The position numbers and the translations under genes are program-made. A stretch of 64,000 bases of DNA from Massilia soli (GTDB lineage: Bacteria; Pseudomonadota; Gammaproteobacteria; Burkholderiales; Burkholderiaceae_D): the NCBI RefSeq assembly GCF_016809835.1, contig NZ_JAFBIL020000005.1:248001-312000 (forward strand), written 5' to 3'. The stretch's first letter is position 1, and each line of letters starts with the position of its first letter. The notes under the pieces were generated by a model. It was not told the origin of the DNA. It did no database searches and saw only the letters and a program-made list of their open reading frames with translations. Of this stretch, positions 349-53,050 are shown in pieces.

Positions 349-1242
349 TTATTTAGCCGCCGACATGGTTTCGGCTTCGGCCAGTTTCTCGCAGTAGAAG
401 CGCTCGCCCATTTCTTCCAGGCCCAGCGTCGCCAGCACTTCCTGCAGGCGCTCGGTCGGACGCTTGCGCGGCAGGTTCTTGTAGCTGGCGATGATCAATT
501 CGTTCTTCATCGAGTGCTCCCAGCCCACCAATTCGGTCACGTTGACCTGGTAGCCGTGCGCTTCGAGCTGCAGGCAGCGCAGCACGTTGGTGACCTGGCT
601 GCCGAATTCGCGCGTGTGCAGCGGGTGGCGCCAGATTTCGGTCAGCGCGCTCTTGCCCAGGTCCTTGCCTTTGTTCTTGCGCAGGACGCTGGCCACCTCG
701 GCCTGGCAGCACGGCACCAGCACCATGAACTTGGCGTTTTTCTTGAGCGCGAAGTCAATGGCGTCATCGGTGGCGGTGTTACAGGCGTGCAGCGCGGTGA
801 CGATGTCGATTTGCGCCGGCAGCTGGTTCGACCTGGTCGACTCAGCCACCGACAGGTTCAGGAACGACATGCCCGGAAAGCCAAGGCGTGCAGCCAGCTC
901 GGTCGACTTCTGCACCAGTTCTTCACGCGTCTCGATGCCGTAGATGCGCGAGCCGTCGTCCAGTCCCTTGAAGAACAGGTCGTACAGGATGAACCCGAGG
1001 TAGGACTTGCCGGCGCCGTGGTCGACCAGCGAAATGCCCGGGTGGTCCTGCTGGACTTCCTTGAGCAGCGGCTCGATGAACTGGTACAGGTGGTACACCT
1101 GCTTGAGCTTGCGGCGGCTGTCCTGATTCAGCTTGCCGTCGCGCGTGAGGATGTGCAGTTCCTGCAGCAGTTCGATGGATTGGCCGGGACGCACTTCCGG
1201 CGGCAGGACCATACCCTGCTGCCTGGTCTCAGCGCGCTTCAT
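349..1242 (-). CDS. Class I SAM-dependent methyltransferase in the isc operon
   Basis: Predicted 297-residue cytosolic methyltransferase. A glycine-rich SAM motif (VDHGAGKSYLGF) lies near residue 65, an acidic strand end (GIETREE) follows, and there is a central VPCCQAEV motif. This resembles the Methyltransf_32/Trm13-like architecture; the substrate is unknown. The ATG at 1242 was chosen because it begins the conserved-looking MKRAETRQQG sequence. An open frame extends upstream to 1398 but there it merely shadows iscX. The start overlaps the iscX 3' end by 14 bp, so translation is probably coupled. Its place between iscX and ltaE suggests co-transcription with Fe-S genes but does not prove a role in Fe-S biology. 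Confidence 0.8.
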   Translation of the reverse strand: MKRAETRQQGMVLPPEVRPGQSIELLQELHILTRDGKLNQDSRRKLKQVYHLYQFIEPLLKEVQQDHPGISLVDHGAGKSYLGFILYDLFFKGLDDGSRIYGIETREELVQKSTELAARLGFPGMSFLNLSVAESTRSNQLPAQIDIVTALHACNTATDDAIDFALKKNAKFMVLVPCCQAEVASVLRKNKGKDLGKSALTEIWRHPLHTREFGSQVTNVLRCLQLEAHGYQVNVTELVGWEHSMKNELIIASYKNLPRKRPTERLQEVLATLGLEEMGERFYCEKLAEAETMSAAK

Positions 1243-1423
1243 CGATCCACGCCTGTTGAATCGCTTCGAGAACCTTCTCGCCGCCGCGGGTGCGGTCGTC
1301 GTCGAAGCCGTCCAGCGCCACCACCCAGTTATGCAGGTCGACGAAACGCACGGTGGCGGGATCGACGTCCGGATACAGGTCGTACAGTGCCTCGGCAATG
1401 GCCGGGATATCGCTCCACTTCAT
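1229..1423 (-). CDS. iscX: Fe-S cluster assembly accessory protein IscX
   Basis: Small acidic protein of 64 residues, the usual IscX/YfhJ length (about 66). In the family it binds iron and IscS and modulates the rate of cluster assembly. The sequence MKWSDIPAIAEALYDLYPDVD and the later VRFVDLHNWVVALDGFDDD with a tryptophan-containing C-terminal helix are characteristic. It follows fdx by 12 bp and overlaps the methyltransferase by 14 bp, the usual last position of bacterial isc operons. Confidence 0.95.
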   Translation of the reverse strand: MKWSDIPAIAEALYDLYPDVDPATVRFVDLHNWVVALDGFDDDRTRGGEKVLEAIQQAWIDEAR

Positions 1424-1435
1424 CGTACGCTCCGG

Positions 1436-1777
1436 TCAGTGGCTTTTTTCAGCCGCGTGATTGATCGTATATTTCGGCAGCTCGACCACCAGGTCCTGCT
1501 GGCCGACGATCGCCTGGCACGACAGGCGCGACACAGGCTCCAGGCCCCAGGCGCGGTCGAGCAGGTCTTCTTCGTCTTCTTCCAGCTCGTTGAGCGAATT
1601 GAAGCCTTCGCGGATCAGCACGTGGCAGGTGGTGCAGGCGCACACGCGGTCGCACGCGTGCTCGATTTCGATATCGTTCGCGAGCAGCGTGTCGCAGACC
1701 GACTGGCCGGTCGGCGCTTCGAGCACGGCGCCTTCAGGGCAGTACTCGGGATGTGGAAGGATGACGATTTGTGGCAC
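1436..1777 (-). CDS. fdx: ISC-type [2Fe-2S] ferredoxin
   Basis: Adrenodoxin-like ferredoxin that supplies electrons for cluster assembly on IscU. With the chosen start it is 113 residues, and the cluster cysteines fall at 42, 48, 51 and 87, the same numbering as E. coli Fdx (HACDRVCACTTCHVL then RLSCQAI). The start is GTG at 1777: an AAGAGGT ribosome site lies 6 bases upstream, and no ATG gives a sensible N-terminus. A longer frame to 1897 exists but runs into the end of hscA. It lies 31 bp downstream of hscA. Confidence 0.95.
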   Translation of the reverse strand: MPQIVILPHPEYCPEGAVLEAPTGQSVCDTLLANDIEIEHACDRVCACTTCHVLIREGFNSLNELEEDEEDLLDRAWGLEPVSRLSCQAIVGQQDLVVELPKYTINHAAEKSH

Positions 1778-40571: not shown

Positions 40572-43045
<2,474 letters not shown>

Positions 43046-48394: not shown

Positions 48395-49549
48395 TTATTC
48401 GACCGCGATTGCGGTCACGGTCCCAGATTGTGTTTGAAAAATCAGATTCGAGCCTGCGACCTGGGGAACCGAAATCACCGGGCTTCCGTCAGTTGCGGCA
48501 CGTGCTAAAAAGCTGCCATCTTCCCGCGAGAGGAAGTGGATGTAACCCTGGTAGTCGCCCACCGCCACGGCGCGGCCGTAGGAGACAGGCGTCGACAGGC
48601 GACGGTAGCCCAGCTTGTCGTTCTTCCAGGCGCTGGCGCCGGTTTCGCGGTCGAAGGCCAGCACCGCGCCCTTGTCGTCCACGGCGAATACAAAGCGCTG
48701 GTCGACCGAGACGCCGACTTCCGACGACAGGTCCTTGTTCCAGCGCGGCTGGCCGGTGGCGACGTCGAAACAGCCGACCCGGCCCTGGTAAGCGGCGGCG
48801 CAGACCTGGCCTTCGAACAGCACCGGGGTGCCGCCGATGTCGGTCACGCGTTCCAGTTCGGTGGCGCCGCGCGCCTCGCCGACTGCCACTTCCCAGCGCG
48901 GCGCGCCGGTCGCCAGCAGCAGCGAAATGAGTTTGCCGCCCGGCTGGGCGATGACGACGTCCTTGTCGACGACGATCATGCCCGGCGCGTTGCGCAGGGT
49001 CAGCGCAGGCGAGGTGCGCTGCACGGTCCATTTCTGTTCGCCGGTCCTGGCGTCCAGGCCGACGATGCGGTTGTCGACCGAGCGCACCACCACGATGCCC
49101 TGCCCGATCACCGGCGAGGACAGCACTTCGGACGAGGCCTGGTACTTCCACATCGCCTTGCCGTCCATGTCGAACGCCAGCACCGCGCCCTTGTGGCCGC
49201 CGAACACCAGCATGTTGCCGTCCGAGCCGACACCGGCGGTCAGCGCGGTGTCCGACTTGACGCGCCACAGCAGGCGGCCGGTGGCCGCTTCGACGCGCGC
49301 GATGGCGCCGTCGGCGCTGGCCGCGACCACGGTGTTGCCGACGATGGCGGGCGTGAACACGAAGTCGTTCGCCTTGCCGATGTCGAGCTTCCATGCGGTG
49401 CGCACCGCCATCGAGCCTTTCAGCTCGACCAGCGGGACCGGCTGGTTACCCTTTGGCTTGGACGCGAAAGGGTTGATCGAATTGAGCGTGGAACAACCGG
49501 CCACCAGGGCCAGGACACCTGCACCGACAAGCTTATGGGTAATACGCAT
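48395..49549 (-). CDS. bamB: Outer membrane assembly lipoprotein BamB
   Basis: 384-residue beta-propeller lipoprotein of the BAM complex, anchored to the outer membrane. Signal peptide with lipobox LVAGC, so the mature protein begins at the Cys near residue 18. Repeated PQQ-like blades ([51 protein letters not shown]). Of two ATGs 6 bp apart, 49549 is better spaced from AAGG. Confidence 0.95.
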
Positions 49550-49645
49550 ATTCATGTACCTTGTACTGTTTTGTTCATTGCCGCCAGAGGGCGCAAAGCC
49601 CGCGCGCACCCGCAAAGGGCACGCGCGGGCTGCCAGGACCGGAAA

Positions 49646-50299
49646 TTACGCAGCCGCTTTCGGGGTCGCTACGGTACCGCCGATCGCTTCGAGCTTGAGC
49701 TGCACCAACTGGCGCGCCGGGTCGTTCTTTGCCATTGCATCGAGCGCCGCCTGGTACGCGGTGCGCGCCTCGGCTACCTTGTTCTGTGCGACCAGGACAT
49801 CGCCCTTGCGGTCGGCCACGGCCGCGGCAAACTGCGGCAGCACGTCGGCGTTCAGCGTCTTGAGCGCGTCGTCGTAGGCTTTCTCGTCGAGCTGCAGGCC
49901 GGCCAGGCGCAGGCGCGCCACCGACTTGTACTCGTCGCTGCCATGCTCGACAACCCACTGCAGGCGCGCCTTGGCGGTCTTGCCGTCGTTGGCGTCGAAC
50001 GCGCTCTTGGCTGCCGACAGTGCACTCATCTGGGCATACGCGCTGCGCGCGTATTTCGACTCGATATCGCTGGCGATACGCTGCACCTTGGCGTTGTCCT
50101 TGGCGGCCAGCGACTTCTGCATTTCTTCGTACAGGCCGGACGCTTCGGCGGCGTTGGTGCGCTGCGAGTAGTTCCAGTAATTGTAAGCCGCGTAGCTGCC
50201 CAGGACGATGATCGCGATCCAGGTAATCATGTTGCCAAACTTGTTCCAGAAAGCCTTCAACGACGCTATCTGCTCTTGTTCTTCGAGATCGTATGCCAT
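49646..50299 (-). CDS. yfgM: YfgM-like TPR membrane protein
   Basis: 217-residue protein with an N-terminal cytosolic stretch, one membrane helix (MITWIAIIVLGSYAAYNYW, about 24-42) and a periplasmic TPR-like domain of degenerate repeats. Matches the YfgM/UPF0070 family, which associates with PpiD and SecYEG. Standard place between hisS and bamB. Confidence 0.93.
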   Translation of the reverse strand: MAYDLEEQEQIASLKAFWNKFGNMITWIAIIVLGSYAAYNYWNYSQRTNAAEASGLYEEMQKSLAAKDNAKVQRIASDIESKYARSAYAQMSALSAAKSAFDANDGKTAKARLQWVVEHGSDEYKSVARLRLAGLQLDEKAYDDALKTLNADVLPQFAAAVADRKGDVLVAQNKVAEARTAYQAALDAMAKNDPARQLVQLKLEAIGGTVATPKAAA

Positions 50300-50346
50300 G
50301 TGTTTATAGGTATAGTAAGTGGATCAAATGGTGTGGTGCTGGTATA

Positions 50347-51687
50347 TCAGTGATGGTAATGCACGTGGTCGTGATCGTGGTCGTGACCGGCGCCGACAAT
50401 CTGGTCGACCAGGTAGTCAACCACTTCCAGGAACGGCACCGACGCCTGCTGCTGGTCGGCGTCGCCTTCGCGCAGCGCCTTGACGGCGGCCGTTTCATTG
50501 GCCATTTCGTCGTCGCCGATGATGACCGCGAACGCAGCGCCGCTGCCGTCGGCCTTTTTCATCTGGCTCTTGAAGCTGCCCGCACCTGCGGCAGTGGCGC
50601 AATGTAGCACAACATCGAGGCCGGCATCGCGAATGCGCTCGGCCAGGATGAACGCCTGGGTCTGGGCCGCCTCGCCCTGGTGCACCATGTAGACGTCGCA
50701 CAGCGCCGGCGCGGCAGGCTCGCCGGCCAGTTTCATCAGTTCGACCAGGCGCTCGATACCCATCGCGAAGCCGACCGCCGGGGTTGGCTTGCCGCCGAAG
50801 GTTTCGATCAGCGGGTCATAGCGGCCGCCGGCGCAGACGGTGCCCTGCGCGCCCAGTTCGTCGGTGACCCATTCGAACACGGTGCGGTTGTAGTAGTCCA
50901 GGCCGCGCACCAGGCGCGGATTGACCGTGTACGGGATATTGTTGGCGTCGAGGATGCGCTTGACGCCGTCGAAGTGGGCGATCGACTCGCCTTCGAGGTA
51001 GTCGAGCAGCTTCGGCGCGTTGTTGACCAGGTCCTGCATGGCCGGGTTCTTGGTGTCGAGGATGCGCAGCGGATTGGCGTGCAGGCGGCGCTTGGCTTCG
51101 GCGTCGAGCAGCGCTTCGTTCGCTTCGAAATACGCGATCAGGTCGGCGCGGTGGCGGTTGCGCTCGGCCGCGTCGCCGATCGAGTTCAACTCCAGGCGGA
51201 TGTTTTCCAGGCCGAGGTCGTCCCACAGGCGGCGGCACAGCATGATCATTTCGGCGTCGATGTCCGGGCCGGTGAAGCCGACCGCCTCGGCGCCGATCTG
51301 GAAGAACTGGCGATATCGGCCGCGCTGCGGGCGCTCGTGGCGGAACATCGGGCCCTTGTACCACAGGCGCTTCGGGCCGTCGTAGACCAGGTTGTGCTCG
51401 ACGACGGCGCGCACCACGCCGGCCGTGCCTTCAGGGCGCAGGGTCAGCGCATCGCCGTTCATTGAATCGGTAAACGAGTACATTTCCTTTTCGACGATGT
51501 CGGTGACGGCGCCGATGGCGCGCGCGAACAGCGCGGTGTCCTCGACGATCGGCGTGACGATCTTCTGGAAGCCGTAGCTTTGCAGGACCGATTGCGCGGT
51601 ATTCTCGAACAGCTCCCACAGCGGCGCGTCGGCCGGCAGGATGTCGTTCATGCCCTTCACGGCGGCCAGTTTTTCAGCTTTAGACAT
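50347..51687 (-). CDS. hisS: Histidyl-tRNA synthetase with His-rich tail
   Basis: 446-residue class II synthetase charging tRNA-His. Motif 1 region [17 protein letters not shown], motif 2 [15 protein letters not shown] and [20 protein letters not shown], HisA motif [15 protein letters not shown], motif 3 [15 protein letters not shown], then the anticodon-binding domain. The conserved part ends near VVDYLVDQI. The last 13 residues are [13 protein letters not shown] with seven histidines, not a family feature. ATG 51687; a REP hairpin lies upstream. Confidence 0.97.
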
Positions 51688-51712
51688 TTATTCTTCCACA
51701 ATTCTTTTATCG

Positions 51713-51775
51713 CGTCGTTCCCGCGACAGCGGGAACCTATACTCAGCATGGGTTCCCGCTTTCGCGGGAACGACG
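51713..51775. repeat. REP-like inverted repeat between ispG and hisS
   Basis: Inverted 25-nt arms (51713-51737 and 51751-51775) with cores GTTCCCGCGACAGCGGGAAC and GTTCCCGCTTTCGCGGGAAC. It abuts the ispG stop. Confidence 0.85.
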
Positions 51776-53050
51776 TTAGCTCAATGCAGCGGTCTCGCGA
51801 CCGTAATTTTTCTTCACATAATCAAGCACGATCTGCTGGAATTCTTCGACGATCCGTTCGCCGCGCAAGGTGGCGAACTTCTGGCCGTCGACGAAGACCG
51901 GGGCCGCCGGCGACTCGCCGGTGCCTGGCAGGCTGATGCCGATATTGGCGTGCTTCGATTCGCCCGGCCCGTTGACGATGCAGCCCATGACGGCCACGTT
52001 CATCGCCTCGACGCCGGGATAGCTCTTTTTCCACTCCGGCATCTGCTCGCGCAGGTAGGTCTGGATGTTGTCCGCCAGTTCCTGGAACGTGGTCGAGGTG
52101 GTGCGTCCGCAGCCCGGGCAGGCAATCACCATCGGCGAGAATTTGCGCAGGCCCATGGTCTGCAAAATCTCCTGCGCCACCACGATTTCCTTGGTGCGGT
52201 CGCCGCCCGGTTCGGGGGTCAGCGAAATGCGGATGGTGTCGCCGATGCCTTCCTGGAGCAGCACCGACAGCGCCGCCGTCGAGGCCACGATGCCCTTGCT
52301 GCCCATGCCCGCCTCGGTCAGGCCGAGGTGCAGCGGGTACTCGCAGCGGCGCGCCAGTTCGCGGTACACGGCGATCAGGTCCTGCACGCCCGAGACCTTG
52401 CACGACAAGATGATCTTGTCGCGCCCCAGGCCCAGCTCTTCGGCGCGCACCGCGTTCTCAATGGCCGAGGTGATCAAGGCTTCGTACATCACCGCCTGCG
52501 CGCTCCACGGTTCGGCGCGCTGGGCGTTTTGGTCCATGATACGGGCCAGCAGCGCCTGGTCAAGGCTGCCCCAGTTGACGCCGATCCGCACTGGCTTGTC
52601 GTACTGCGCCGCCACTTCGATCATCTGCGCAAACTGGGTGTCGCGCTTGGCGCCCTGCCCCACGTTGCCCGGGTTGATGCGGTACTTCGACAGCGCGCGC
52701 GCGCACTCGGGATAGTCGCGCAGCAGCGTGTGGCCGTTGTAGTGGAAGTCGCCCACCAGCGGCACATCGACTTCCATGCGGTCGAGCTGTTCGCGGATCA
52801 GCGCCACGGCGGCGGCCGCTTCCGGCCGGTCGACCGTGATGCGGACCATCTCGGAGCCGGCGCGCGCCAGCTCCTTGACCTGGATCGCGGTGCCGATCAC
52901 GTCGGCGGTGTCGGTGTTGGTCATCGACTGCACCACGATGGGCGCGTCGCCGCCGACCCAGATCTTGCGCTCGCCGTGCGAGACCAGCACGCTGCGGCTG
53001 ACGCGGCGGGCCATCGGGCCGGATGGAATTGCGGTATTCGAAAATGCCAT
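51776..53050 (-). CDS. ispG: HMB-PP synthase IspG (GcpE)
   Basis: 424-residue [4Fe-4S] enzyme of the MEP isoprenoid pathway, making HMBPP from MEcPP. TIM-barrel half with [20 protein letters not shown] and RINPGNVG; cluster cysteines in IACPGCGRT and [11 protein letters not shown]. As an Fe-S enzyme it depends on the ISC machinery at the other end of the window. 2 bp downstream of the rodZ-like gene. Confidence 0.98.

Follow-up and report, generated by a model that had tools for sequence, protein, structure and literature searches.

A histidine- and cysteine-rich C-terminal tail, kept across relatives of Massilia soli, is a probable metal-binding appendage of histidyl-tRNA synthetase

In proteins, Zn, Ni, Co and Cu are usually coordinated by histidine, cysteine, aspartate and glutamate, and the tail of Escherichia coli SlyD mixes His with Cys. 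Runs of His codons have a second setting: leader-peptide attenuators, such as the his leader, lie upstream of the gene that they regulate and combine alternative hairpins with a terminator. We know of no metal-delivery role for histidyl-tRNA synthetase (HisRS). In the consulted part of the work on mycobacterial GroEL1, peptides of its tail DHDHHHGHAH form three Cu(II) sites, a number that the replacement of single His residues leaves unaltered, and a role in metal homeostasis is predicted for this tail (PMC10170517). The consulted part of a second source states that some N-terminal His-rich regions of HypB are proposed to store or buffer nickel, that one His-rich HypB also binds Zn, Cu, Co, Cd and Mn, and that the SlyD tail is required for [NiFe]-hydrogenase maturation; the His-rich tail of Klebsiella aerogenes UreE is given there as dispensable for urease maturation (PMC7055735), so that not every His-rich tail matters.

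The window analyzed here is a stretch of 64,000 nucleotides of Massilia soli DNA (NZ_JAFBIL020000005.1, positions 248,001 to 312,000). On its minus strand, positions 50347..51687 hold hisS, the gene for a histidine--tRNA ligase of 446 amino acids plus stop codon, as seen from the open reading frame, TIGR00442, Pfam and the AlphaFold2 fold. The protein scores 492.9 bits against TIGR00442 over residues 9-411 (curated cut-off 286.75) and contains the Pfam domains tRNA-synt_His and HGTP_anticodon, of which HGTP_anticodon is the last and stops at residue 428. An AlphaFold2 model computed from an alignment of 63 HisS has a mean pLDDT of 84.8, and the PDB entry closest to it is 4e51 (4e51_A, TM-score 0.95 normalized to target, 64% identity). 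By NCBIfam, Pfam and fold, HisS of the window is an ordinary histidyl-tRNA synthetase, the same enzyme with the same fold as those of E. coli (1kmm) and B. thailandensis (4e51).

Beyond all of these family models (the TIGR00442 match ends at 411 and HGTP_anticodon at 428) lies a tail of 13 residues, seven of them His (residues 434-446; 50350..50388, minus strand), and the 13 tail codons with the stop codon make up exactly positions 50347-50388. The initial annotation had described a His-rich end past the conserved domain, and this description is confirmed. The tail consists largely of an HD-repeat part, HDHDHD (residues 435-440; 50368..50385, minus strand), whose unit number varies among relatives, and a C-terminal cap, HVHYHH (residues 441-446; 50350..50367, minus strand). 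In the AlphaFold2 model, pLDDT is under 50 throughout residues 434-446, as it is elsewhere at residues 56-66 and 120-122, and the model thus points to a tail that is probably disordered. Downstream of hisS, a spacer of 47 nt (50300..50346, minus strand) leads to the gene for a yfgM-like TPR protein of 217 amino acids (49646..50299, minus strand; open reading frame, PF09976 TPR_21, 220.2 bits), which we take to be yfgM, in line with the earlier placing of the tail just before that gene.

Compared with the described systems, HisS and GroEL1 are alike in that the tail is C-terminal and rich in Asp and His. GroEL1 differs as a chaperonin-type protein whose Cu(II) binding was measured, whereas the HisS tail is known here from sequence, and the exchange of Cys and His seen among HisS tails (described below) is not mentioned in the consulted part of the GroEL1 source (PMC10170517). 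SlyD and HypB share with HisS a His-rich terminal region; unlike HisRS, they are metallochaperones. The 4e51 sequence has no His/Cys tail, and its aligned end is an acidic stretch at the point where the window tail begins. The protein of the window is therefore best described as an ordinary HisRS carrying a type of metal-ligand tail already described on other proteins. Among the open-licence papers listed, judged by titles and the starts of abstracts, we found none on a His-rich tail of HisRS.

Within the genome, hisS stands alone among 361 open reading frames (at least 120 amino acids, from 464 kb; picked mechanically, with some wrong frames included) in having at least four His in the last 13 residues. 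A DNA pattern for HVHYH has a single site in the 5.0-Mb genome, which is the hisS tail. The corresponding pattern for HDHDH has five sites: two overlap within the hisS tail, another (L148; G000, contig C39, around 175295-175309) is inside a heavy-metal P-type ATPase, and the remaining two (L146 and L147) fall in frames that we could assign to no real gene. The P-type ATPase scores 385 bits against TIGR01525 (cut-off 346.25) and carries a long His/Asp-rich stretch ahead of the ATPase core. Separately, the genome encodes an FKBP-type (SlyD-like) protein (L316, positions 1192-1758, minus strand, contig C1) whose C-terminal tail is acidic and rich in His and includes QHEHVHGAHGHHHGDEDDEGDEGDE; its best NCBIfam model gives 110.1 bits, below the cut-off of 174. 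Since this FKBP-type protein has a His-rich tail of its own, the idea that the HisS tail substitutes for a missing SlyD tail was set aside. The idea that the HisRS paralogue hisZ shares the tail does not hold: hisZ (41891-43045, minus strand; NF008935, 591.3 bits, cut-off 350), which the window carries some 7 kb away from hisS, has no His tail and ends WILKNLG. No metal gene was recognized among the open reading frames flanking hisS when their list was inspected by eye.

To follow the tail across relatives, 245 genomes of the window's family were searched; 243 gave a match, and from these 161 hisS ends were read, mainly among the matches listed. These genomes were chosen to cover genera (43 of 44 in the end) and are not a random sample, genomes outside the listed matches being under-sampled. 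One hisS broken by an in-frame stop (L098, genome G013) was left out, leaving 160 ends; genome G023, whose hisS is cut by the end of a contig, is not in the count, and genome G024, with a long acidic extension ending HEHH, was counted as tail-less. On this basis, a His-rich or His/Cys-rich tail ends HisS in 149 of the 160 readable cases, in 34 of 43 genera. The initial annotation had named as refuting its reading a tail confined to this strain or replaced by unrelated residues in close relatives; instead, the tail is kept across the sampled family. The nine tail-less genera (g9, g10, g11, g20, g29, g34, g35, g36 and g43) are distant from the window HisS, at 61-65% identity, except g10 at 74%. 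In the nearest relatives found of the window strain (L083 and L084), the sequence VGCGHDHD stands against VGAGHDHD of the window, with Cys in place of Ala, so that even at this short distance the tails are not alike in their possible ligands.

Named genomes with the tail are those of Massilia, Duganella, Pseudoduganella, Herbaspirillum, Collimonas, Glaciimonas and Solimicrobium. NCBI places Massilia, Herbaspirillum, Collimonas, Glaciimonas and Solimicrobium in the Oxalobacteraceae, where Duganella and Pseudoduganella presumably belong as well; the named members of the tail clade are thus Oxalobacteraceae. No tail was found in sampled Burkholderia, Paraburkholderia, Caballeronia, Cupriavidus, Ralstonia, Polynucleobacter, Achromobacter, Comamonas or Acidovorax. 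In other families of the order, none of 40 genomes (35 families), drawn from the 133 other-family genomes with a match, reached a combined four His and Cys within the final 25 residues. A HisS tree was built from the 136 unique sequences among 140 proteins with the tail columns excluded, a tail being scored as more than two His plus Cys after the DQI anchor. All tails fall in one clade with an SH-aLRT of 99, in which 64 of 65 members carry one; none of the 71 rows outside this clade does. The exception in the clade is a metagenome-assembled genome labelled Janthinobacterium lividum (G025; L131 / L015), whose hisS ends IFGQAE, and no His-rich frame was found among the three forward frames of 180 bases read around its hisS stop. 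The simplest history, on this unrooted tree, would be a single gain of the tail in the ancestor of the clade and a single loss.

The composition of the tail is strongly biased. Over 150 tails, a set that includes G024, His makes up 36%, Asp 18%, Gly 12% and Cys 3%, and Lys plus Arg together about 1%; Lys and Arg are absent altogether from 124 of the 149 tails. The His-Asp units vary in number, with 11 to 21 residues following the DQI anchor within the single genus g26. At the very end, by comparison, a cap H[VIL]HY[HKR], followed by one residue at most, closes 90 of the 149 tails, and 47 genomes from 12 genera share the exact ending HVHYHH, spelled in 27 different ways at the DNA level. The cap is missing from the other 59 tails, in 15 genera (e.g., g7, g23 and g41), in which the richness in His and Cys is kept.

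We compared pN/pS in the last six codons with that in the 12 codons ahead of the tail. The values were 0.018 versus 0.195 in g26, 0.017 versus 0 in g28, 0 versus 0.078 in g22, 0 versus 0.238 in g30, 0.033 versus 0.465 in g1, 0.092 versus 0.154 in g6, and 0.087 versus 0.086 in g14, these seven genera being hand-chosen and their pairs non-independent. Over all 619 within-genus pairs, pN/pS was 0.225 in the last six codons and 0.296 in the 12 codons ahead of the tail; the higher all-pairs value is probably due to genera in which different tail types occur together, g18 and g40 among them. Synonymous sites in the seven genera are far from constant, with pS from 0.3 to 0.98, so that there is hardly space for an RNA element under conservation, and the low pN/pS of the last six codons indicates that selection in these genera acts on the peptide.

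Cysteine is present in 50 of the 149 tails. The initial annotation had proposed a comparison of HisS C-termini for conservation of His, and what proves to be conserved is richness in His and Cys, with Cys joining or replacing His in these 50 tails. Examples are GECGCGENHSSHDCCSH (g7), DDSSCCDDPNHIHINH (g32), CGDDCDHDHHHHH (g40) and HDCDDENCNEHGHHHRP (g18), and the g41 tails DEHDCDCCG and DDHCCC have one His and three Cys each. Two Cys lie at most four residues apart in 28 of the 149 tails. Switches between His-only and Cys-bearing tails number nine on the best tree, and the well-supported branches alone force at least four changes of the Cys label versus all others. In 122 of the 149 tails, His and Cys together number 6 to 8, and their separate counts are negatively related (rho -0.37, a raw value uncorrected for relatedness). 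A trade-off between the two on independent supported branches was not significant, with only four pairs available; we therefore claim an exchange of His and Cys, not a proven compensation.

The exchange of His and Cys, the accompanying Asp and Glu, and the near lack of Lys and Arg suggest a transition-metal-binding tail, by analogy with SlyD, HypB and GroEL1. Terminal, rich in His, Cys, Asp and Glu and predicted to be disordered, the tail has the features of the His-rich metal-binding tails, a class that is functional and not one family. From its sequence we infer that the tail binds metal, and among the three readings offered in the initial annotation (a histidine sensor, metal binding or a neutral extension) metal binding appears to fit best. 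In particular, a metal site would tolerate Cys in exchange for His and a counter of His codons would not, which favors metal binding over the sensor. We also count for metal binding the similar His stretches of the P-type ATPase and the FKBP-type isomerase in the same genome. Points against it are a cap more fixed than plain metal holding requires, the non-significant trade-off between His and Cys, the smaller number of switches forced by well-supported branches, the tail-less G025 inside the clade, the low pLDDT also seen at residues 56-66 and 120-122, the dispensable UreE tail, and the lack of a recognized metal gene beside hisS. Taken together, we consider it probable that the tail is a conserved, likely disordered, transition-metal-binding appendage of HisRS, acquired most simply by a single gain in the ancestor of the clade.

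If so, the tail of each subunit would hold at least one ion of Zn(II), Ni(II), Co(II) or Cu, the choice of metal being a guess, and its likeliest use, also a guess, would be to buffer such metals at HisRS, either by keeping them out of the Mg-dependent active site or by taking them from the free substrate histidine, which is itself a metal chelator. A metal-dependent side reaction of HisRS might be a further option, suggested by two statements in the consulted part of one source: HisRS is rated there among the synthetases most active in Ap4A synthesis, and zinc stimulates the Ap4A activity of PheRS and, to some extent, of LysRS, that part making no mention of zinc together with HisRS (PMC10148737). 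The bolder proposal, that HisRS of this clade responds to metals, with a tail that senses or strips Zn, Ni, Co or Cu, possibly from metal-histidine complexes, and so ties the charging of histidine, and perhaps Ap4A synthesis, to the metal state of the cell, we regard as speculative and rather unlikely.

The tail matters in that an essential enzyme gained and kept a set of metal ligands across most of the sampled family, and in that this set is made largely of the amino acid which HisRS itself handles. If the tail does bind metal, it would link translation to metal homeostasis, a link for which we found no paper among the open-licence ones listed. There is also a practical side for protein work: native HisRS of these bacteria may stick to metal-affinity columns.

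The over-fixed cap raises the possibility of a binding partner. Here, HVHYHH would dock on the ribosome, the yfgM product, tRNA-His or the other subunit, and any metals would be incidental. The recurrence of the cap in 90 of the 149 tails agrees with docking, as does the strong purifying selection on the last six codons in genera that keep it. However, the 59 tails that lack the cap are still rich in His and Cys, which fits metal chemistry better than a single docking surface, and an acidic tail with few Lys or Arg is poorly suited to RNA binding. We therefore hold docking to be a doubtful alternative to metal binding.

A further alternative, raised in the initial annotation, is a histidine-starvation sensor resembling a leader peptide: a shortage of charged tRNA-His would halt ribosomes at the terminal His codons of hisS and so change the expression of hisS or of the downstream yfgM. 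Its appeal lies in the seven His codons among the last 13 of the gene for the cognate synthetase, a run of His codons like that of the his leader, and in the gene order: a yfgM-type start follows hisS in 146 of 161 cases by one pattern and in 14 more by eye, the one case left being the broken L098, and in 153 of 160 by a second pattern. In addition, the consulted part of one source argues that a shortage of HisRS makes closely spaced His codons a burden and that genes carrying them are then lost (PMC2923632), which makes a His-rich end on HisRS itself odd, yet is no proof of a sensor. Against these points, the His codons are not conserved as codons, as seen from the Cys-bearing tails and the single His in the two g41 tails, and the non-His cap residues V and Y are kept with pN/pS near zero in several genera, so that the peptide is what is kept. 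CAC and CAT are used in similar proportion in the last 20 codons (573:394) and in the rest of the pieces read (396:245). Unlike the his leader, the run lies at the end of a gene of 446 codons; no terminator-like site was found in 50150-50600, nor any Rfam match up to E 0.1 in 49400-52000. Anything from 6 to 141 nt separates hisS from yfgM, and 32 of the 153 spacers that a pattern recovered in the 160 genomes are no longer than 13 nt. Moreover, stalling within hisS would presumably lower HisRS just when it is needed. With Cys in the tails, no terminator or Rfam element and a variable spacer, the sensor was rejected, and we consider it highly improbable. As a separate observation on this spacer, that of L127 (genome G067) contains about nine copies of ATCAC and is possibly prone to slippage, and a close relative, L126 (genome G027), has a short version.

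Least probable of all is a neutral low-complexity extension arising by slippage of GAYCAY repeats, as the initial annotation had also allowed: the number of HD units does vary between close relatives, as in g26, many outgroup HisS end in short acidic stretches, and Asp to His is a change of one base, but such an extension, whether neutral or strain-specific, was rejected on the family-wide retention of the tail (149 of 160 genomes), on the single tail-less member of the tree clade, and on the last six codons, which within genera differ often at synonymous sites but seldom in the encoded amino acid (pN/pS 0 to 0.092 in the seven genera).
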